Assembly (NCBI GenBank): GCA_020851635.1
Contig: JADZCJ010000051.1
Coordinates: 1-43,448 of the forward strand
DNA from: Anaerolineae bacterium
GTDB lineage: Bacteria; Chloroflexota; Anaerolineae; UBA4142; SHND01
DNA: 43,448 bases
Direction: 5' to 3'
Positions 2,194 through 36,162 of the stretch are shown here, piece after piece (positions within the stretch are counted from its first letter, which is position 1; each line of letters starts with the position of its first letter). The translations under genes were made by a program, and so were the position numbers. The notes beneath the pieces were generated by a model that did no database searches, was not told the origin of the DNA, and was given only the letters and a program-made list of their open reading frames with translations.

Positions 2194-3150
2194 ATGGCAA
2201 GGCGTGAGCATCTGGCGATTCTAAAAAAGGGTGTGGCGACATGGAACGCGTGGCGAGAAGCGAATCCGGACATCGAGCCGGACTTGATCGGCGCGTTCTT
2301 GCGGCGCACGAATCTTGCAGGCATCAATCTTTCGAACGCCAATCTGTTCGGCGCGAATGTGCGGAGATGCGTGTTGACGCGGGCGGATTTTTCAAAGGCG
2401 CGTCTGGGCGGCGCAGACCTTTCGGGCGCAAATCTGCATCACGCAAATCTGCGCGGCGCGCATCTGAACGGCGCAAACCTGAATCGTGTGGATTTGTCGC
2501 GCGCGAACCTGAGTTATGCGCGGATGGGGCAGACCGTGCTGGGCGATGTGGATCTGACGCGGACGAGCGGACTCAAGACCGTGCGACATAACAATCCTTC
2601 GACCATCGGCATTGACACCATTTACCGGTCGGGGGGCAAGATTCCGGAAGAATTTTTGCGCGGATGCGGAGTGACGCAAGAGATGATCGAGTTTTCGAAC
2701 TCGCTGCGCGGCAAGGCGATTCGGTATCATTCGTGTTTTATTTCCTACGCGTCGGCGGATGAACGGTTTGCGCGGAAACTGCATGATGATTTGCAAATGA
2801 ACGGGGTGCGCGTGTGGTTTGCGCCGGAAGATTTGAAAATCGGCGCCCCGATCGAAGACTCGATTGACGAAGCGATCCTGTCGTATGACAAGTTGATTCT
2901 GGTGCTCTCACAGCATTCGATGGACCGCGCCTGGGTGCGGCACGAATATATGCGCGCGATGAAAAAGGAAAAAGAGACGGGGCAGGTTGTGTTGTTTCCT
3001 TTGCGAATTGACGACGCGGTGTTTGACACGACCGAACAGTGGGCGTATACACTGCACAAACGGCATCTGGGCGATTTCCGGAACTGGACGAATCCGCTGG
3101 TGTATCAGAATGCGTTTAACCGGTTGTTGAGGGATTTGAATAGAGCATAG
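2194..3150 (+). CDS. Pentapeptide-repeat protein with C-terminal TIR domain
   Basis: A 318-residue, two-module protein. Residues about 30-125 form a right-handed pentapeptide-repeat helix (A(D/N)LxxA units such as GADLSGANLHHANLRGAHL). A conserved linker (PSTIGIDTIYRSGGKIPEEFLRG) leads to a TIR domain at about 179-300: box 1 CFISYASADERFA, box 2 region VWFAPEDLKIGAPI, and WVRHEYMRA, in which E251 aligns with the catalytic Glu of NAD-cleaving TIR domains. There is no signal peptide. The linker plus TIR combination recurs in cyanobacteria and Chloroflexota, so it is a real family. The role is unknown; NAD hydrolysis in stress or phage defence is an inference from the TIR residues. Confidence 0.9.
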   Translation: MARREHLAILKKGVATWNAWREANPDIEPDLIGAFLRRTNLAGINLSNANLFGANVRRCVLTRADFSKARLGGADLSGANLHHANLRGAHLNGANLNRVDLSRANLSYARMGQTVLGDVDLTRTSGLKTVRHNNPSTIGIDTIYRSGGKIPEEFLRGCGVTQEMIEFSNSLRGKAIRYHSCFISYASADERFARKLHDDLQMNGVRVWFAPEDLKIGAPIEDSIDEAILSYDKLILVLSQHSMDRAWVRHEYMRAMKKEKETGQVVLFPLRIDDAVFDTTEQWAYTLHKRHLGDFRNWTNPLVYQNAFNRLLRDLNRA

Positions 3151-3228
3151 GTGGGAAAACCCGGGGTCGTCCTCATGCCGACAATTCTTTATCAGCCGGA
3201 GAGTTTGGGACTGATGATGGTCTCTTCC

Positions 3229-4173
3229 TCAGCTACTCTTGTGATGAATGGATACGCTGTCATCCTCCCATAAATACTCGGTCGCGTAAGGAGCGAACAA
3301 CGGATTGCTGCGCAACCGCTCCGCTTTGCCCTGGAACTCTTGAAGGAGGTCTGCCGGGCAGTCATCATCCGTAAGTTTGCCGTTGTTGCTCAACTCGAGC
3401 AAGCGTAGGGCAGGGCGCAGGCGCTCTTTGTTGAGCACGCGGTTCAGATAACCACGGTACGCTTTTGCGCCATAGCGCCCATTGAATTTTTGTGCAGCGA
3501 ACTCGACCCATCTGGAAATCCGTGGATACCAATAGAGTTCTTGAGGTGTAAAAGATGGATTTGCCCGCCCGGGATCAAACTCAAAATGCTCCAACCCCAA
3601 CCGCTTTTCAACGAGCTCGAGAAATCGGTCTTGATCGTCGCGCAGGACCTCGTATGGCAGCACAGTAAGATTTTCCTCGCCGAACGCACCGGCGTACAGC
3701 TCGAGCAAATAGTCCACGTCGAGCCCCTCCACTATCGCCTCTCGAAATGTTCGCAGATATTCCTGATAGTCGAGTGTCCCGCCCGCTTTGACATATTGTG
3801 AAAAACTGGAGCGCAGGATGCTTTTGTAGCCGCGCGTGACCACCAGCACGTGCGCAGTCGGAAAGAGGTCCTTTAGAATGACACACACTCGCCTTTGGAA
3901 TTGTTTTACGTCGAGACCGTATCCCTCGAACTGCTTGTAATGACCGGTCCAATGCAAAGGCATCATCCAGCCCGCGCAGAGATTTTCGTCGCTTGTCACG
4001 TAATATGCCGGTGTCCTTGCCGAACGGACTGCCCAAGTGCTAATCGCATGCGTCTCTGCAAAACCGGCGATCCCTTTTTTCACGTATAGGAGCTGCGGAT
4101 GCGACTGAAACCACCTCTGGAGAAAGGTCGAGCCCGACTTGACATAGCCAATGTGTAACAACGACTTGGTCAT
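3229..4173 (-). CDS. Sulfotransferase family protein
   Basis: A 314-residue P-loop-like sulfotransferase that should move a sulfuryl group from PAPS to an unknown acceptor. The 5'-phosphosulfate loop is at the N-terminus (HIGYVKSGSTFLQRWF) and a 3'-phosphate region follows near residue 115-140 (VVTRGYKSILRSSFSQYVKAGG). The C-terminal part is rich in Tyr, Arg and Glu, as in glycan- or lipid-type sulfotransferases. A GTG at 4176 directly precedes the ATG at 4173. There are no neighbouring glycosyltransferases, so the substrate cannot be guessed. It is convergent with the TIR gene across 78 bp. Confidence 0.8.
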   Translation of the reverse strand: MTKSLLHIGYVKSGSTFLQRWFQSHPQLLYVKKGIAGFAETHAISTWAVRSARTPAYYVTSDENLCAGWMMPLHWTGHYKQFEGYGLDVKQFQRRVCVILKDLFPTAHVLVVTRGYKSILRSSFSQYVKAGGTLDYQEYLRTFREAIVEGLDVDYLLELYAGAFGEENLTVLPYEVLRDDQDRFLELVEKRLGLEHFEFDPGRANPSFTPQELYWYPRISRWVEFAAQKFNGRYGAKAYRGYLNRVLNKERLRPALRLLELSNNGKLTDDDCPADLLQEFQGKAERLRSNPLFAPYATEYLWEDDSVSIHHKSS

Positions 4174-4438
4174 CACGCTTTATTCCCTCGATACTGTGCG
4201 GCAGTGCCCCGATGTTTTGAGACAGAGAGCGATTCTCAGTCCTGCCGACCCGAATCCAGGTCTCTTTTGGGGACCCGCCACATTGGAATCTGCTGCCATG
4301 AACAGCTCGCCGCCCGATAATGTATCAGTACCGGGCGCGTCCCGATATTAAGTACGTGAGGGCAAATAGTCAATTGCGATGCGATGCCAGTACCGCCCGT
4401 CGCAACGCTGGACCCAGCCGCTCGAGAGGATCCCAACG

Positions 4439-28081: not shown

Positions 28082-29128
28082 TCACTTGTAAACGCCATAA
28101 CGCCGCGCCGCTTCCATCATGGCGTGAACATTTTCCGGTGGCGTCATCGGCGGCAAGGCACAACCGGGTCCGAGAATCAGTCCGCCCCCCTCACCCAAAA
28201 CCTCAATCGCTTCCTTGCATTTGGCATCCACTAACTCCGGCGTGCCGAGCGCCATAACCCCGCTCGGGTCAATCGGACCGAGAATCGTCGCCTTGCCGCG
28301 CGTCGCCGCTTTGACCTGCGCCATGTCAATTTTGTAATCGAGTTCGAGGACCGCCGCGCCCGTGTCCGCCATGTCGGCAGCGATGCGCGTCGCGTTGCCG
28401 CAGATGTGGTACGCGAGCAAAATATTTTCTTCCTTGAGCCGCGCGGCGAGCCGTTTGGCATACGGGTATTCGAATTCTTTGTACAGCTTGGGTGAGCAAA
28501 CATCGGGACCCGCCAGCGATTCGCCAATCGAAGTCATGTGTGCGCCTTGTTCCATTTGCGCGACACAATAGCGGTAGCTGGCTTGGAGCGAAAATTCCAG
28601 CAAGCGGCCGATTTCTTGCAAATGCTCCCGCGTCGCGAGTTCGTACAGGAACACATCCATTCCCAGAATCAATGCGGCGAGTGAAAACGGTCCCTGGTCG
28701 CCGCGTCCCATGATAAAGGCGCGGTCGCCAATCTCGCGCGCAACAATGCGCGTCGCCTTGAGCAACTCGGGCAGAGTGCCATCACGATACGGGTCAGGCA
28801 ATTTCAGCGAGTCCACCTGGTCGAGACTGCGGATGGCGGGAGTAAACGAAACCGGCGCGCTTTCGTCAAAATACTCGACGCCGCAGCCGCACGCTTGAGC
28901 CAGGGCGGCAGTGCCGTTTTCCAACAGCAACACATCGTGACCAAATTCGCGCCACGCGCGGATTTGCCCTTCTGCCATTGCCTCGCCGCTGCCAAAAAAT
29001 TCAGGAAACGGCATACCCGACGCCTGCGCGGTCATCATGAAATTGTGCAAGTCCACAGGCACGCGGTCCGGGATACCGCCTGCCAGCACCGTCTGCACAC
29101 GTTCGACGGAATTCATTGTCTCGCTCAT
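28082..29128 (-). CDS. Uroporphyrinogen decarboxylase-like (URO-D/MtaA) family protein
   Basis: A 348-residue URO-D-superfamily TIM barrel. It is not heme HemE: instead it has the zinc-type ligands of corrinoid methyltransferases such as MtaA, H-x-C in LAYHICGNATRIA (about 241-253) and a later Cys in LILGPGCALPP. Methyl transfer is the known chemistry of such members, but many lie in sugar operons with no known function. No corrinoid protein gene is near. The ATG overlaps the epimerase stop by 4 nt, so it is the last gene of the sugar operon. Confidence 0.88.
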   Translation of the reverse strand: MSETMNSVERVQTVLAGGIPDRVPVDLHNFMMTAQASGMPFPEFFGSGEAMAEGQIRAWREFGHDVLLLENGTAALAQACGCGVEYFDESAPVSFTPAIRSLDQVDSLKLPDPYRDGTLPELLKATRIVAREIGDRAFIMGRGDQGPFSLAALILGMDVFLYELATREHLQEIGRLLEFSLQASYRYCVAQMEQGAHMTSIGESLAGPDVCSPKLYKEFEYPYAKRLAARLKEENILLAYHICGNATRIAADMADTGAAVLELDYKIDMAQVKAATRGKATILGPIDPSGVMALGTPELVDAKCKEAIEVLGEGGGLILGPGCALPPMTPPENVHAMMEAARRYGVYK

Positions 29129-30405
29129 ACCAGCTCCATACGCGAATCGTTCTCTATCTTGTCCATCAGCGCGTCAATGCGGCGCACAAGTTCAAGACAC
29201 GCGCGCCCATTGTGGTAGGGACATTTCCACGGGTCTATTTTCCAATCATTGCGATAATACGGCGAAGGGTCATCCGCCGGTTCTATCAAAAAGGGTTTGC
29301 CGAGACGATTGACCTTGGCGAACCATTCGCCGCGCGCATGATCAATCACGTGCCGGTCAACAAAGTCCCAACACAACTTGACATTCTCCCAATAGCGCGG
29401 GTCGTGTGTCAATTCAAACGCATTCATCATGCCCACCAGCGTCTCCGCCTGTATCCACCAATGTTTATTGGTGCGCAAGTGACTGCCCTCGCGCGACGAT
29501 TCCAGAAACATCCCGCCGTCCTTGTCGAACCCTACACGCTCCACCGCGTTCAACATACGCAGCGAAACCGCGCGCATTCGTTCCACAATAATCGGGTCGC
29601 CGAGATTTTCCGCCGCGTCCAGCAGCAGCCACGATGCTTCGACATCGTGCCCAAATGAACAAATTCCGCGCGATGCCTCCGCTTCTTCCATCGCGTCGTC
29701 AAAAAAAATGCCAAGATGTCCCGAGGGGCGAATGATTTTGTCCAGGAAAAGCAGCAACAGTGAACGCAGACGCGTTTGCACCTCGGGGGCGCGCCAGACT
29801 TGATACAGCGCGGAGTATGCTTCCAGTGCGTGCAAATGCGTGTTCATTGTTTTCGGCTCGTCGTGGTCAGCCATGCGGTTTTTCCCGAGCAGCTGCCAGT
29901 CGCGCGTAAACGCTTCGCGATATCCGAAATTGGACGCGTCAGCCGTTTTTGCTTCCAGGAGGTGGAACAAGTCTTGAATATACCGCAAGCGTGCGGGCGC
30001 AGGTTCAAACGCGTAATGTTTGCACAGCGCATACAGCGCAAACGCCTGGGCATACGTGTGCTTGGTCGTGTCGGCGGGACGATTGTCCGGCGTGAGCTCC
30101 ATGAAAAAACCGCCGTGCGTATCGTCCGCAAAATAGGTCGTCAGCACATGATACGCGCGTCGCGCCATCTCGGCGTACGCTGCGTCACCGTATTTTGCGG
30201 CGGCGGCAGAAAAAGTCCACAAAATGCGCGCATTCAACACACACGCTTTGTTGGCGGTCAGCACCGGTTGGTTCTGCAAATCCACCGCGCCATAAAAGCC
30301 ATCGCCGCCGCGTTCGACGGCATACCGCATCCAATAGGGCAAAATGTCATGCACAAGTTCGTTTTCAAAACGGGCGCGATACGCGGCGAGCTCATCTCGG
30401 TTCAT
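29125..30405 (-). CDS. AGE family epimerase, cellobiose 2-epimerase-like
   Basis: A 426-residue (alpha/alpha)6-barrel sugar epimerase. Motifs closest to cellobiose 2-epimerases are seen: MNTHLHALEAYSALYQ, SFGHDVEASWLLLDAAENLG and KHWWIQAETLVGMMNAFE, with several catalytic His. It should interconvert glucose-type and mannose-type sugars at C2 in the cytoplasm. ATG 30405 overlaps the permease stop (ATGA), and is favoured over ATG 30426 for that reason. Being inside a sugar-import operon, it probably processes the imported glycoside. Confidence 0.88.
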   Translation of the reverse strand: MNRDELAAYRARFENELVHDILPYWMRYAVERGGDGFYGAVDLQNQPVLTANKACVLNARILWTFSAAAAKYGDAAYAEMARRAYHVLTTYFADDTHGGFFMELTPDNRPADTTKHTYAQAFALYALCKHYAFEPAPARLRYIQDLFHLLEAKTADASNFGYREAFTRDWQLLGKNRMADHDEPKTMNTHLHALEAYSALYQVWRAPEVQTRLRSLLLLFLDKIIRPSGHLGIFFDDAMEEAEASRGICSFGHDVEASWLLLDAAENLGDPIIVERMRAVSLRMLNAVERVGFDKDGGMFLESSREGSHLRTNKHWWIQAETLVGMMNAFELTHDPRYWENVKLCWDFVDRHVIDHARGEWFAKVNRLGKPFLIEPADDPSPYYRNDWKIDPWKCPYHNGRACLELVRRIDALMDKIENDSRMELV

Positions 30406-31385
30406 TTTCGAATTGGCTTTTGCCATGCGCTAAAGAGCACGGCAAAGAGCACGATGAGACCGCGCGCTACTTCTTGCCAGTAGGGGGGGACGCCCATCAG
30501 CGTCATACCGTTGGACAGCAAGCCGATAAAGAGCACACCGAGAAAGCTCCCAATCATCGAACCGGAACCGCCTGCGAGACTGGTGCCGCCGATCACCACC
30601 GCCGCGATAACGTCAAACTCTAGCCCCTGCCCGACGTTGTACACACCTGCCATCACGCGCGACGAAATGATAATGCCGCCCAGCGCCGCCATCAATCCGC
30701 TGAGCGCAAAAATGATGATGCGCGTGCGCCCAACCGGAATCCCGGAGAGACGCGACGCTTCTTCATTTCCGCCGACGCTATAGACGGACCTGCCAAACAC
30801 CGTCCGCGTGCTGAGAAATTGAAAAATGGCAATCGTGATCAGCATGAGCACCGCAGGCACGGGAATAATTCCCAATACATAACCCTGCCCCCAAAAACTG
30901 AATGATTCAGGAAACGGCGTTATCGGGTATGCATTGGTAACGACTTTAGCCATGCCCGAGAGACTGATATACAGCGCGAGCGTGACGACGAATGCCGGAA
31001 TACTCCAGCGCACACGGATGAATCCTGCGCCCATGTGAATCAAGGCGCCCTGTGCCAAAACAATACCCACGGCGAGGAGGAGTGGAATCTTGAGCGTGAT
31101 AGCCAGAATGCCGAGCAGTGAGGATGACCACGCCACCGCCGAGCCAACGCTCACGTCAATGTCACCCGAAATAATGACGAACGTCATGGCGCAGGCAATG
31201 ATGCCGTTGACCGCGACCGCGCGCAGAACATTAAAGAGGTTTGTGGGCAGCAAAAAGTTGGGCGCAAAAATCGCCAACAAACCAAACAGCACAATCAATG
31301 CAACCAGCAAACCGGAGCGCGCGATAAATTCACGCGTGCGGCGCAGCAACGCTGGCTGGGCTCGTACTTGCTGTGTCTTGACCAT
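30402..31385 (-). CDS. Ribose-type ABC importer permease (RbsC-like)
   Basis: A 327-residue permease with about 8-10 membrane helices and the RbsC-family features ACAMTFVIISGDIDVSVG, GRSVYSVGGNEEASRLSGI and GTSLAGGSGSMIGSFLG. The latter two are the cytoplasmic coupling region and the end of the pore domain. The ATG at 31385 lies 56 nt inside the ATPase gene, so the two are strongly coupled. It works with the ATPase and the binding protein of the same operon. Confidence 0.93.
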   Translation of the reverse strand: MVKTQQVRAQPALLRRTREFIARSGLLVALIVLFGLLAIFAPNFLLPTNLFNVLRAVAVNGIIACAMTFVIISGDIDVSVGSAVAWSSSLLGILAITLKIPLLLAVGIVLAQGALIHMGAGFIRVRWSIPAFVVTLALYISLSGMAKVVTNAYPITPFPESFSFWGQGYVLGIIPVPAVLMLITIAIFQFLSTRTVFGRSVYSVGGNEEASRLSGIPVGRTRIIIFALSGLMAALGGIIISSRVMAGVYNVGQGLEFDVIAAVVIGGTSLAGGSGSMIGSFLGVLFIGLLSNGMTLMGVPPYWQEVARGLIVLFAVLFSAWQKPIRK

Positions 31386-32883
31386 GCCCGATTTCCTCCA
31401 TCACGAGTGTCATCAACGTTTCAAGGTCTATCTCGCCGCGGCGGAACTGGTGCGTCAGATAGCCGCGATTCATGACCAGAATGCGGTCTGCGACCTCTAA
31501 TACTTCTTCGATTTCGGATGAGATAAACAGTATGCCGATCCCCTGCTGCGCAAGGTCGCGGACAAGGTGAAAAATCTGTTCTTTGGCTTGGATGTCAATC
31601 CCGCGCGTTGGCTCGTCCATGAGCAAAACGTCCGGCTGTGTATTGAGCCAATTGCCAATCACCACCTTTTGCTGATTGCCGCCGCTCAGTGTCCCGGTTG
31701 GCACGGACAGACTGGCAGTTTTGATCGAGAGTGATTCCACCATTCCCATTGCCAAACCCTGTGCGCGCTGCCGCTGTAAAATGCCGTGGATGTTCAAGCG
31801 ATTCAAACTGGCGAGCGTCAAGTTGTCCAGCACTGCAAATGGCAGGATCAGCCCCTGGCGTTTGCGGTCCTCCGGAGTCAATCCGATGCCGTTCGCTTTC
31901 ATGCGATTGGGGCTGGGGTGCGAAACGATTGTGCCGTTGACTTGGATTTCGCCGCTGTCAATCGCGTCCGCGCCAAAGATCGCACGCACGAGTTCCGTGC
32001 GTCCCGAGCCGAGCAGCCCCGCGATCCCCAACACTTCGCCGCCGTAAAGTTCAAAGGTCACGTCGTTGAGCCAACCTTTACGGTTCAAGTGCCGTACCGC
32101 GAGTTTGACGGCGCCGGGGTTACTCTTGGCGCCCCATTCGGTTGGCTGCCAGTCCGCGCCAATCATCATGTTCGCAATGCGTTTGGGGGTAGCTTCCGCC
32201 ACTTGAATTGTGCCGACCACCTTGCCGTCGCGCAGGACAGTTACCGTGTCGGCGACGCGCGGAATTTCCTGGAGCCGATGCGTGACATAAATAATGCCGT
32301 GCCCTTGTTCCGCCAGACGCCGGACGACTTTGTGCAGGACCGCAACTTCACCGGCAGGCAGCGCGCTCGTCGGTTCGTCGAGGACCATGACGCGCGGCGA
32401 AAATGAAATGGCCTTGGCGATTTCAACCAGCTGCTGTTGGGCAATGCTGAGACGCGAAACCTGCTCGTCCAGGTTCAAAGTCACTTCGAGCTGGTCTAGC
32501 GCTCCCCTGGCGATTTTTCGAATCTTGGCGTGGTCAATCATCGAAAACGCGCCCAGGCGCAATTGGGGCCAGCGACCAAGCAGAATATTTTCGGCGACCG
32601 TCAGCCCCGGCACCAAACTCATCTCCTGATACACCGTGCAGATGCCCATGTCGAATGCCGCACGCGTGTCAGGAATGGAAACCGGCTTGTCGTCAATACG
32701 AATTTCGCCGCTGTCCGGTTGATTGGCTCCGCTCAGAATTTTGACGAGTGTGGATTTGCCCGCGCCGTTCTTGCCGAGCAGCGCACGGACTTCACCCTTG
32801 TCCAGTGAAAAATCCACATTGTCCAGGGCGAGGACTCCGGGATACTGCTTGGTTACCTGATGCAAAGAAAGAATCGGTGGCAT
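31330..32883 (-). CDS. Ribose-type ABC importer ATPase with two domains (RbsA-like)
   Basis: A 517-residue fused double ATPase. Domain 1 has Walker A ALLGKNGAGKSTLVKIL, the usual degenerate signature LSIAQQQLVEIAKAI, and Walker B RVMVLDEPTSALP. Domain 2 has a weak Walker A GIAGLLGSGRTELVRAI, signature LSGGNQQKVVIGNWL and Walker B DVLLMDEPTRGID. This pattern is normal for RbsA/MglA/XylG. The Pro/Ala-rich C-terminal tail overlaps the permease start. Confidence 0.94.
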   Translation of the reverse strand: MPPILSLHQVTKQYPGVLALDNVDFSLDKGEVRALLGKNGAGKSTLVKILSGANQPDSGEIRIDDKPVSIPDTRAAFDMGICTVYQEMSLVPGLTVAENILLGRWPQLRLGAFSMIDHAKIRKIARGALDQLEVTLNLDEQVSRLSIAQQQLVEIAKAISFSPRVMVLDEPTSALPAGEVAVLHKVVRRLAEQGHGIIYVTHRLQEIPRVADTVTVLRDGKVVGTIQVAEATPKRIANMMIGADWQPTEWGAKSNPGAVKLAVRHLNRKGWLNDVTFELYGGEVLGIAGLLGSGRTELVRAIFGADAIDSGEIQVNGTIVSHPSPNRMKANGIGLTPEDRKRQGLILPFAVLDNLTLASLNRLNIHGILQRQRAQGLAMGMVESLSIKTASLSVPTGTLSGGNQQKVVIGNWLNTQPDVLLMDEPTRGIDIQAKEQIFHLVRDLAQQGIGILFISSEIEEVLEVADRILVMNRGYLTHQFRRGEIDLETLMTLVMEEIGHGQDTASTSPASVAAPHA

Positions 32884-32962: not shown

Positions 32963-34021
32963 TTACTTGAAGATCGCCTTGCCTTCGGTATCCATGAATT
33001 GCTTGATCAAGGCATCATCACCGCGCCCGAAATAGATGGTCGGTGTATTCGTCGTCGCTTCCACTTTTTGCCCGTCCAACACCGCAAGCGCTGCCATGAG
33101 CGAGTCATAGCCCATCTGATAGGGCGCTTGACCGGTAACCCCTTGCAGGATGTCGTCATCCGCCATCAACATCTGCCCCATCTGGTTGTTCATGTCGGTG
33201 CCGAACACAAACACCTTGCCCGCCAGACCAAGCGTCTTGACCGCGTTGGCGTGCGCGACCGTGCCGCCTTCATTCGCTGCCCACAACACATTGATGTCAG
33301 GATTCGCTTGCAGCATCGCTTCGGAAACCGGCTGTGCTTTGTCGGCCAGCCAACCTGCCTGGTCCGCCGCCACTTCCACGCCCGGTAGTGTCTTTACTTG
33401 AGCGAGAAATCCCTCTTTGCGCGGCGGGCAGCCCTCGAACTGGTCGCAGTTCAAAATGCCAATCTTGGCTTTGCCGCCCAGTTTGTCCTGAATGAATTTC
33501 GCCGCCGCTTCGCCGCTCTTGGTGCCGAGGTCCTCGTTCTTGGTCACCAGGAACGCCGACGGAATGGACTTGTCATTGACACAGGTGTTGAAACAAACAA
33601 TCGTGATGCCCGCATCTTTGGCTTTTTTCAACGCCGCCACCGAGCCGTCCGCCGAAATCGGCGTGATGACAATCGCACTCACTTTGCGCGTGATGTAATC
33701 GTCAATCATGCTCGCTTCTTTGTCCAGCTTGTTTTCCGTGTTGCCCAAGAGCATTTCGACGTTGCCATTCTTGTCAGCCGCCGCCTGCATACCCGCTTGA
33801 ACGGTCTGCATGAACGTATCGCTTTGGAAAACGACGCCCGCGATAGTCATTTTACTCGCGGCAGCCGGCGGCTGAGTTGCAGCGGGCTGTTGGGGAGCTG
33901 CGGTGGCTTGGGGTTGGGCGGGCGCCGCTGCCGGCGGAGCTGCTACCGGCGCCGCGCACGCGACAGCAAAGAGCGCCACAAGGGCAAAAAGCGATAGAAC
34001 GAACAGAAATTTCGGTTTCAT
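32963..34021 (-). CDS. Ribose-type ABC importer, sugar-binding lipoprotein (RbsB-like)
   Basis: A 352-residue binding protein. The signal peptide ends LVALFAVACAA with lipid-attached Cys22, then a Pro/Gln/Ala/Thr linker to about residue 56. The Peripla_BP_4 domain starts with KMTIAGVVFQSDTFMQTVQAG (first strand and helix), and continues VSAIVITPISADGS and AGITIVCFNT. ATG 34021 has AGGAG at the right distance. First gene of the operon, driven from the promoter at 34279-34307 through a long leader. Confidence 0.93.
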   Translation of the reverse strand: MKPKFLFVLSLFALVALFAVACAAPVAAPPAAAPAQPQATAAPQQPAATQPPAAASKMTIAGVVFQSDTFMQTVQAGMQAAADKNGNVEMLLGNTENKLDKEASMIDDYITRKVSAIVITPISADGSVAALKKAKDAGITIVCFNTCVNDKSIPSAFLVTKNEDLGTKSGEAAAKFIQDKLGGKAKIGILNCDQFEGCPPRKEGFLAQVKTLPGVEVAADQAGWLADKAQPVSEAMLQANPDINVLWAANEGGTVAHANAVKTLGLAGKVFVFGTDMNNQMGQMLMADDDILQGVTGQAPYQMGYDSLMAALAVLDGQKVEATTNTPTIYFGRGDDALIKQFMDTEGKAIFK

Positions 34022-34130
34022 CTTCTTCTCCTTTTTCAATTGGTCATGCACTCGAAAAGTGTTTCATTGTATGGAAATTTCTACAGGATCATGTCAATAA
34101 TGCCTCCTTTTTGCGCGCCAAGTCAAGCGA

Positions 34131-34278: not shown

Positions 34279-34307
34279 ATTCTAACATGAATTTTTTCAA
34301 ATGTCAA
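34279..34307 (-). promoter_or_regulatory. Sigma70-type promoter of the sugar-import operon
   Basis: On the minus strand: TTGACA at 34307-34302, a 17-bp spacer, TAGAAT at 34284-34279. All but one base match consensus. Transcription would start near 34272, leaving a leader of about 250 nt before the rbsB-like ATG. Confidence 0.75.
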
Positions 34308-34323
34308 TGAATGTGAATGAATT
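34304..34323. promoter_or_regulatory. Candidate operator: 10-bp-spaced direct repeat
   Basis: AATGAAT at 34306-34312 and at 34316-34322 repeat exactly one helical turn apart; the wider unit is TSAATGAATK twice. It overlaps the -35 box of the sugar operon and lies between the two diverging promoters. DeoR-family repressors often bind short direct repeats, so the regulator at 34444 is the natural candidate. Confidence 0.5.
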
Positions 34324-34344
34324 CAAAAGAAACATGGACACAGA

Positions 34345-34374
34345 TTGACATTCGATGTTCATTTTCGGTATAAT
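34345..34374 (+). promoter_or_regulatory. Sigma70-type promoter of the chimeric regulator gene
   Basis: TTGACA at 34345-34350 and TATAAT at 34369-34374, both perfect consensus, with an 18-bp spacer. Transcription should start near 34381, about 63 nt before ATG 34444. Confidence 0.8.
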
Positions 34375-34443
34375 GGTTTCAAATTCGAAAGTCTTTGTGG
34401 AGCAGAAGGTTTGAGGCAAACGGGCGACCCATGGAGGTACAGC

Positions 34444-36162
34444 ATGACGGCAGAAGAGCGCTTGAATCAAATCACTGAACTGGTGAACGAGCGAGGTTTT
34501 GTGTCTGTCAAGGCATTGAGCGAACAGTTTGACGTGTCCGAAGTGACAATTCGCCGGGACCTCCAACGCCTGCACGCCGAAGGTCGCATCCTGAGAACAT
34601 TCGGTGGAGGGGTCGCACAACACAAGGGCGCCGATTCACAAGCGGCAAATGCGCCTGCGCTCTTGGAAGGACGCTTGCTAGATCGAGTGGACGTTTTGAT
34701 CGCAACCGCGCTGGATGCCCGATTTGATCGGACGCTCGTTGACAGAGCGGTCAAGCGAGGGATTCCGGTCATCGGGGAATCGCTTGGCTCGCCCGGCATG
34801 AAGACCGTGGTTGCAGTGGATAGCTACCACGCCGGAGTTGCCCTGGGGCGGTGGTCCGGTAATTTTGCCCGCGAGCATTTTCACGGACGGGCGAACGTGC
34901 TCGACCTCACCTATGCGTTGACCAATACGCGCGCGCGCAGCCAGGGATTCACAGTCGGGCTGCGCGAGATTTTGCCCGAAGCTCAAGTCACACTGTCCAT
35001 TGATGCGCAATCGCGCGCGCAAACTTCAAAACAAATTACGATCGACGCGCTGAGTGTGCATCCCGAAATCAACATCATCTTTGGCATCAATGACGCGACT
35101 GCCTGGGGCGCCATGTGTGCCTGTGAGGAATTGGGAAAAGATCCGTCCGGGCTGCTGGTGGTCACCTTTGGTCTGGAAGGCGACACTTTGAAGAATTCCC
35201 TCCTGGCGTCAAACAGTTTTTGCCGCGCAGGGCTTGCGATGTTTCCCGAAATTATCGGTCCCGTTTGCATTCAAGCCGCCATCGCAGCGTTTAATCACAA
35301 GCCGCTTGCGCGAGAATTGATCACACCGCATGTCATTCTTGATCGCGAGTCCTTGAACCATTATTACGCAAAAACTGCCGCCGGATGGGCTTTGCGGAAT
35401 AAAGCATCGTCAAAGGAACTCGACATCCCGTTGGACATCGGGCAGTCGGCGCAACACTCGAATATGCGATTGCCGAAACGGATTGGGTTCGTTGTCTCGT
35501 TCGGCGAACATGAATGGTATGACAGTCTGGGCAAACGCATGACCGAATATGCAAACGGGCTTGGGATCGAGCTCGAGATTGCAGACGCCACGCAAACTCT
35601 CAAAGATGAAATTCTTTGGCGCCAGCGCGAAATCGCCAAGACCGCCGCGCTCCAGGTCAAATCCGGGGATGTCGTATTGATTGACGGCGCAGAGATCACA
35701 ACGTGTCTCGCGGAGGAGCTCGTAACCGCGCATCAGATTACGGTGATTACCAATTCGATGCCCGTGTTCCAAATCCTGAGTCAAAATCCGACGATTTCGC
35801 TTATTTCAACCGGGGGTTCTTTGCGCCATGCCAGCGATACGTTGATTGGTCCGACAACGGAAGCGGCGCTTGACACCGTGCGCGCGGACAAACTCTTTTT
35901 GGCGGCGAGCGGCATTTCTCTGGATTTTGGACTCTCACATACAAATGTCGCCGAAGTCAGCGTCAAACAAGCGATGCTGCGCGCGGCACGCGAAGTGATT
36001 TTGCTAGCCGATCATTCGCGCTTTGGACAAGAATCTGTGATCCGGATCGCTCCGGTCTCGGCAATTCATAAAGTGATCAGTGACAATGCCCTACCCGCCA
36101 GCACGCGCCTTGAATACAGCAAGTTGGGTATCAAAGTCCTCATCTCTGATCCTCTTGGATAG
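34444..36162 (+). CDS. Chimeric regulator: DeoR HTH, permuted sugar-binding domain, DeoR sensor
   Basis: A 572-residue cytoplasmic transcription factor. Residues 3-58 are a DeoR helix-turn-helix (SVKALSEQFDVSEVTIRRDL then the GRILRTFGGG wing). Residues about 78-310 match Peripla_BP_4 from its third strand on (DRVDVLIATALDARFDR, KRGIPVIGES, DSYHAGVALGR, IIFGINDATAWGA). Residues 343-385 (PKRIGFVVSFGEHEWYDSLG and onward) look like the missing first strand-helix-strand of that fold. Residues about 394-572 are a DeoR sensor domain (EIAKTAALQVKSGD, ITVITNSMPVFQIL, STGGSL, DKLFLAASGI, VILLADHSRFG). GGAGG precedes ATG 34444 by six bases. It is divergent from the sugar operon and is probably its repressor. 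Confidence 0.9.
   Translation: MTAEERLNQITELVNERGFVSVKALSEQFDVSEVTIRRDLQRLHAEGRILRTFGGGVAQHKGADSQAANAPALLEGRLLDRVDVLIATALDARFDRTLVDRAVKRGIPVIGESLGSPGMKTVVAVDSYHAGVALGRWSGNFAREHFHGRANVLDLTYALTNTRARSQGFTVGLREILPEAQVTLSIDAQSRAQTSKQITIDALSVHPEINIIFGINDATAWGAMCACEELGKDPSGLLVVTFGLEGDTLKNSLLASNSFCRAGLAMFPEIIGPVCIQAAIAAFNHKPLARELITPHVILDRESLNHYYAKTAAGWALRNKASSKELDIPLDIGQSAQHSNMRLPKRIGFVVSFGEHEWYDSLGKRMTEYANGLGIELEIADATQTLKDEILWRQREIAKTAALQVKSGDVVLIDGAEITTCLAEELVTAHQITVITNSMPVFQILSQNPTISLISTGGSLRHASDTLIGPTTEAALDTVRADKLFLAASGISLDFGLSHTNVAEVSVKQAMLRAAREVILLADHSRFGQESVIRIAPVSAIHKVISDNALPASTRLEYSKLGIKVLISDPLG

Follow-up and report, generated by a model that had tools for sequence, protein, structure and literature searches.

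Regulators of the LacI/GalR family are DNA-binding proteins that use a type I periplasmic-binding-protein (PBP) fold as their ligand sensor. Few natural circular permutations of PBPs have been described. One group, ligand-binding proteins of "Type Ic / Cluster Bc", comprises TpMglB-2 (Tp0684; 5JX2, 6bgc) of Treponema pallidum and its relatives (PMC4990184). In TpMglB-2 the relocated strands lie at residues 300-307 and 331-337, the relocated part has only 13% identity to a canonical N-terminus, and it was left open whether the moved part is truly permuted or came from another gene (PMC4990184). DeoR proteins, PBP-type sensors as in LacI, and a naturally permuted PBP (TpMglB-2, PMC4990184) are each already known singly; the regulator described here carries features of all three in one chain.

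The window (the whole 43,448-nucleotide stretch of DNA analysed here) contains an intact open reading frame at 34444..36162 (+) that encodes a protein of 572 residues. Together with 26 full-length colinear homologues, this protein makes up the family of 27 members to which the counts below refer. It is a DeoR regulator with a type I PBP domain in the linker between its helix-turn-helix (HTH) and DeoRC domains. The DeoR-type winged HTH occupies residues 3-58 (34450..34617, +; Pfam PF08220, E 5e-18), with the HTH_DeoR match itself covering residues 6-58 and passing the curated cut-off. It is followed by a flexible linker (residues 59-71; 34618..34656, +) of variable length among the homologues, where the AlphaFold model is of low pLDDT, falling below 50 at residues 61-74. 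The body of the permuted PBP covers residues 68-322 (34645..35409, +) and, by PF13407 and structure alignment, corresponds to RbsB from residue 43 to its end, comprising helix 2 and strand 3 onward in both lobes. From there a connector between the former C- and N-termini of the PBP (residues 323-342; 35410..35469, +), placed from the domain limits and modelled with lower confidence, leads to the relocated strand 1 - helix 1 - strand 2 at residues 343-385 (35470..35598, +). This segment was identified by HHalign, BLAST, and the model, in which its elements are E346-351, H357-372, and E376-381. A continuous predicted helix, residues 382-402 (35587..35649, +; DSSP of the AlphaFold2 model), runs from the end of the permuted PBP into DeoRC, a NagB/RpiA-like fold at residues 394-567 (35623..36144, +; 7l6l), where the Pfam match to PF00455 covers residues 395-547 with an E of 4e-44.

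The linker between HTH and DeoRC is short in ordinary DeoR proteins (HHalign columns 98 and 115 in a profile of 32 proteins), whereas about 330 residues are inserted at this position here, well outside the short linker that marks the DeoR/GlpR family. The regulator is a variant DeoR/GlpR protein rather than an ordinary member. An earlier note, made from the sequence, had claimed a DeoR HTH, a permuted PBP, and a DeoRC in one protein; this is borne out by Pfam, HHalign, and the model, and the coordinates it gave were correct to within a few residues.

We judge it nearly certain that the insertion is a genuinely circularly permuted type I PBP. The Peripla_BP_4 profile (PF13407) matches residues 64-284 over profile positions 42-255 of 258 (E 1e-17) and its first ~41 positions are absent; when the stretch 333-419 was scanned alone against Pfam, it gave a weak match (E 0.11) to positions 1-44 of the same profile, the complementary piece. 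By HHalign, a segment profile built from the 27 sequences (residues 338-392) aligned with columns 15-69 of a transporter-SBP/RbsB profile (88%, E 4e-7) and the body aligned with columns 64-326, the two jointly spanning columns 15-326 with all elements of both lobes present. The segment profile also matched the N-termini of a canonical SBP subfamily at 97.5% (E 3e-11). Body and segment, searched separately, are thus complementary parts of one PBP profile, and the canonical element order is absent, the first strand-helix-strand being found at the end of the domain.

Rotating the sequence gave a consistent result. With the segment moved ahead of the body, the domain produced a single 308-column BLAST alignment to a canonical SBP (34% identity, 187 bits); without rotation, the alignment broke into two pieces, of 166 and 35 bits, in the wrong order. 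In the canonical SBPs of what we call the HEWY subfamily (L037:2970-4226 and two in L042), LPKTIGHVTNYLVHEWYQN or a closely similar sequence is the counterpart of LPKRIGFVVSFGEHEWYDS of the segment, and the region that is 35-40% identical to the body comes directly after this segment-like start.

The full-length AlphaFold model had a pLDDT of 89.6 and a pTM of 0.72, and residues 68-398 modelled alone had a pLDDT of 89.1 and a pTM of 0.88. Model residues 68-302 aligned with residues 43-271 of RbsB (2dri) at Z 22 (VIA-align). Canonical PBPs aligned with the model from residue 67 to about 320, beginning near their 43rd mature residue, and among the matches listed they mostly ended at 302-323, with two ending at 373. 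TpMglB-2 (6bgc) aligned over its residues 8-349 with model residues 100-391 (Z 22.1, 262 residues), reaching further than any canonical PBP among the matches listed and doing so through the relocated segment. Two plasmid sequences (Shinella and Sinorhizobium) were left out of the structure alignment. As modelled, the segment occupies the place of the relocated strands of TpMglB-2 and completes the N-lobe sheet, which was judged from the pTM and the co-alignment with TpMglB-2 rather than from hydrogen bonds. The expectation that residues 343-385 complete the fold of residues 78-310 is accordingly upheld by HHalign and by the TpMglB-2 co-alignment.

The ligand pocket also draws on the relocated segment. 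Using the pocket residues of RbsB (PMC2630998), N13, F15, F16, R141, N190, and D215 correspond to H356, W358, Y359, R165, N216, and E245 of the regulator, with the first three forming the H356-x-W358-Y359 motif of the segment (35509..35520, +). In the family alignment H356, Y359, R165, N216, and E245 are present in 27/27 members and W358 in 26/27. Because H356, W358, and Y359 lie in the relocated segment and are conserved, selection has kept that segment as a component of a single pocket. At other positions RbsB D89, R90, F164, and Q235 are replaced by S113, L114, S190, and M266, although the alignment near E112/S113 may be off by one, and the ligand therefore need not be ribose. The permuted PBP most likely senses a free sugar.

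The segment starts about 20 residues past the body and continues straight into the DeoRC helix, as might be expected if it were what remains of a second, truncated PBP, or a DeoR linker that had been extended, and left the first domain uncompleted. However, exactly this piece is missing from the body by both Pfam and structure alignment, its pocket residues are conserved across the 27 proteins, and the domain folds by itself in the model, with the TpMglB-2 match running through the segment. Moreover, the segment showed no similarity to the 32 verified ordinary DeoR proteins, linkers included (3%, HHalign). These HHalign results exclude a DeoR linker or a second truncated PBP as the identity of the segment, and we give this reading almost no credence. 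A domain swap within an oligomer, with each PBP body completed by the segment of a different subunit, is somewhat less far-fetched. DeoR-family proteins are oligomers, and the connector at 323-342 is of lower model confidence, but the segment is already docked confidently in cis in the monomer model, and we consider a swap improbable.

The DeoRC fold is intact, with E. coli DeoR (7l6l) aligning to model residues 385-567 at Z 27.4. At residues 414-419 (35683..35700, +), by family comparison, a degenerate phosphate-type loop, DGAEIT, stands in place of D-x-G-[ST]-[ST]-x. The [ST][ST] hydroxyl pair of this loop, which follows the first strand, was found in 1/27 permuted proteins as opposed to 32/32 ordinary DeoR proteins (Fisher p 7e-16, which is nominal as the sequences are related), and its first position is E, Q, R, K, D, or P in nearly all permuted proteins. 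Other residues of the domain are kept, including D523 (27/27), T436 (27/27), K508 (24/27), and K/R526 (20/27). Positions 523 and 526 are equivalent to D210/K213 of LacR and D206/K209 of UlaR, which bind the phosphosugar inducer (PMC10991401), and the retention of D523 and K/R526 indicates that DeoRC may still bind something. With both folds complete in the model, these retained residues could be taken to favor a true dual sensor, in which the permuted PBP would read a free sugar and DeoRC its phosphorylated product, combined by AND/OR logic. The earlier note had likewise proposed that free sugar and phosphosugar are sensed jointly. This proposal is unsupported, as the hydroxyl pair of the phosphate loop is gone in 26/27 members, whereas proteins of the order HTH-DeoRC-PBP, described below, keep it in 13/14; the rhizobial members are also without the lysines at 508 and 526. 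We regard a dual sensor as unlikely. DeoRC has most likely been kept mainly as an oligomeric core, relieved of its phosphosugar role, and there is some chance that it binds some other ligand.

Within the class of the window, the permuted regulator was found in 20/298 genomes, complete in 19 and split over two contigs in one, and several of these genomes carry two or three copies. One locus belongs to a Caldilineales MAG (Chloroflexota). In a phylum-wide draw searched with a profile of the junction, 2/400 genomes were positive, the window's own and one of the same class. Plasmids of Shinella and Sinorhizobium encode the regulator as well, at ~30% identity over 99% of its length, and one of these rhizobial members is annotated only as "substrate-binding domain-containing protein". 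The full-length colinear homologues in the class genomes and on the two plasmids exclude an assembly artefact or chimera. The same rearranged protein recurs in about 20 genomes of Chloroflexota and on plasmids from root-nodule bacteria, and so represents a genuine sensor design, not an accident. The 27 permuted regulators group as a single clade (99/93) in a tree built from the PBP region, with the HEWY SBPs as sister group (100/98), and the permuted arrangement looks to have arisen once and to have been conserved. The rhizobial members fall inside the group on a long branch, which suggests an old transfer.

The HEWY SBPs, at 35-40% identity, are the closest relatives of the sensor and share with it the pocket motif and an LPxxIG...HEWY start. 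They are unlike the regulator in being of canonical order, having lipoprotein- or signal-like N-termini, and serving as transport components. A HEWY transporter protein was present in only two of the searched genomes. At L037 (L075; G169:C70) a permuted regulator (1081-2811) is directly followed by the HEWY SBP (2970-4226), a permease, and an ATPase. This neighbourhood is the best place to find the ligand. The RbsB-like SBP next door to the regulator in the window had been offered as a comparison; it does show the canonical order, but it is no close relative of the permuted domain, with 20% identity over 173 columns (E 0.006) and a position in a different clade, and it was rejected as the domain's source.

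The permuted order may have arisen from a tandem PBP that lost the front of its first copy and the back of its second, which would leave body and segment in the order seen. Transporter proteins with two tandem PBPs are encoded at L061:4431-6443 (670 aa) and L062:6263-8476 (737 aa), where they adjoin permuted regulators, so raw material for such a permutation exists. Further two-PBP tandem proteins were seen at L046:3375-5318 and L047:1775-4300, and such tandem binding proteins are themselves unusual. No intermediate between a tandem PBP and the permuted domain was found.

Proteins of the order HTH_DeoR-DeoRC-PBP, with a canonical C-terminal PBP, were observed at L044:3713-5437, L045:3701-5464, L048:3171-4937, L051:2362-4119, L052:3406-5226, L053:4273-6207, L054:3464-5233, and L055:4176-5900, and also at L049. 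Like the permuted regulator, each combines a DeoR protein with a transporter-derived PBP. They differ in that the PBP is C-terminal, canonical, and of another SBP subfamily that forms a separate clade, and in that the DeoRC loop is kept. In the tree the sister group of their PBP clade consists of SBPs, and several of these loci also encode such an SBP. These proteins are an independent fusion of a receptor and a DeoR protein.

In the window, the RbsB-like solute-binding protein, of canonical order, is encoded divergently from the regulator (32963..34051, -; PF13407 positions 7-258). On the same strand are a sugar ABC transporter ATPase (31330-32883, -) and permease (30402-31385, -), ORFs that were named from sequence and cluster with genes near other permuted regulators, followed by an AGE-type sugar epimerase (29125-30426, -; PF07221) and a URO-D-family gene (28082-29128, -) that clusters with a Pfam-identified member. 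The neighbours of other family members encode ABC transporters, ROK and PfkB kinases, fucose isomerase, GH38, and AGE epimerase, as well as DUF4432 and GHMP kinase. URO-D-family genes (PF01208) recur near permuted regulators and sugar genes, with 12 clustered ORFs that include the one in the window and those at L063:9338-10462, L065:4683-5810, and L012:4629-5756.

Two promoter-like sequences, recognised by consensus match only, lie between the divergent genes: TTGACA-18-TATAAT (12/12; 34345..34374, +) upstream of the regulator, and TTGACA-17-TAGAAT (11/12; 34279..34307, -) in front of the ABC transporter genes. Both -35 boxes are overlapped by an imperfect inverted repeat of 23 nt (arms 34297-34319 and 34333-34355), which marks a candidate operator region. 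Across the family, upstream 8-mers were common to up to 7/27 regions compared with 4-5 in shuffles, a statistically weak signal, and a GACTTTCGAA-type element (<=1 mismatch) was present upstream of only 4/27 members. Two further sequences are candidate operator half-sites, both with weak family statistics: the palindrome TTCGACTTTCGAAGTCGAA about 200 bases upstream of the L017 regulator, and TTCGAAAGTC at window positions 34384-34393, immediately past the -10 box.

We propose that the regulator was made by insertion of a permuted type I PBP into a DeoR linker. In the model, the two new PBP ends are next to each other where N-lobe strand 2 meets helix 2, and as a result closure of the lobes could act on both flanking domains at once. 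A cytoplasmic free sugar or sugar-like compound would close the two lobes, and closure would shift both the linker to the HTH and, at the other end, helix 382-402, which leads into the DeoRC core. The paired HTHs would then be spaced differently and operator binding would be altered, with DeoRC serving as the core for oligomerisation and transmission. As a whole, the locus is probably best explained by a sugar-responsive regulator that controls the adjoining ABC-transporter and sugar-catabolism genes through its permuted PBP. The stronger statement, that this is a natural permuted-receptor insertion resembling single-chain biosensor design, with closure coupled both ways and the DeoR sensor demoted to an oligomeric frame, seems to us evenly balanced.

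There is clear homology between the relocated part and the start of extant canonical relatives. Donor, site of the break, and product are therefore all open to comparison, which makes this a clean evolutionary example of permutation. The regulator also represents a second route, besides LacI, from transporter receptor to regulator, with the HTH-DeoRC-PBP proteins as a parallel and independent fusion in the same class. For engineers who couple PBP closure to DNA binding, the protein offers a natural precedent and possibly a scaffold. A literature search of open-access scope, and hence weak evidence, returned no report of this combination of domains, of a break after strand 2, or of insertion into a DeoR linker.

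Compared with the described systems, the regulator shares the HTH_DeoR, the DeoRC fold, and the sugar-gene context of DeoR/GlpR regulators such as E. coli DeoR (7l6l), AgaR, and LacR, but these have a short linker and the phosphate-type loop, in contrast to the ~330-residue permuted PBP and lost loop found here. LacI/GalR regulators differ in having a LacI HTH and a PBP of canonical order without DeoRC, and the permuted regulator does not have the LacI/GalR layout. TpMglB-2 is alike in that strands of the N-lobe have moved to the C-terminal end, a likeness that comes from structure alignment. It differs in being an exported lipoprotein and in the position of the break, with three strands moved (break between strands 3 and 4) in TpMglB-2 as opposed to a break after strand 2 in the permuted regulator.
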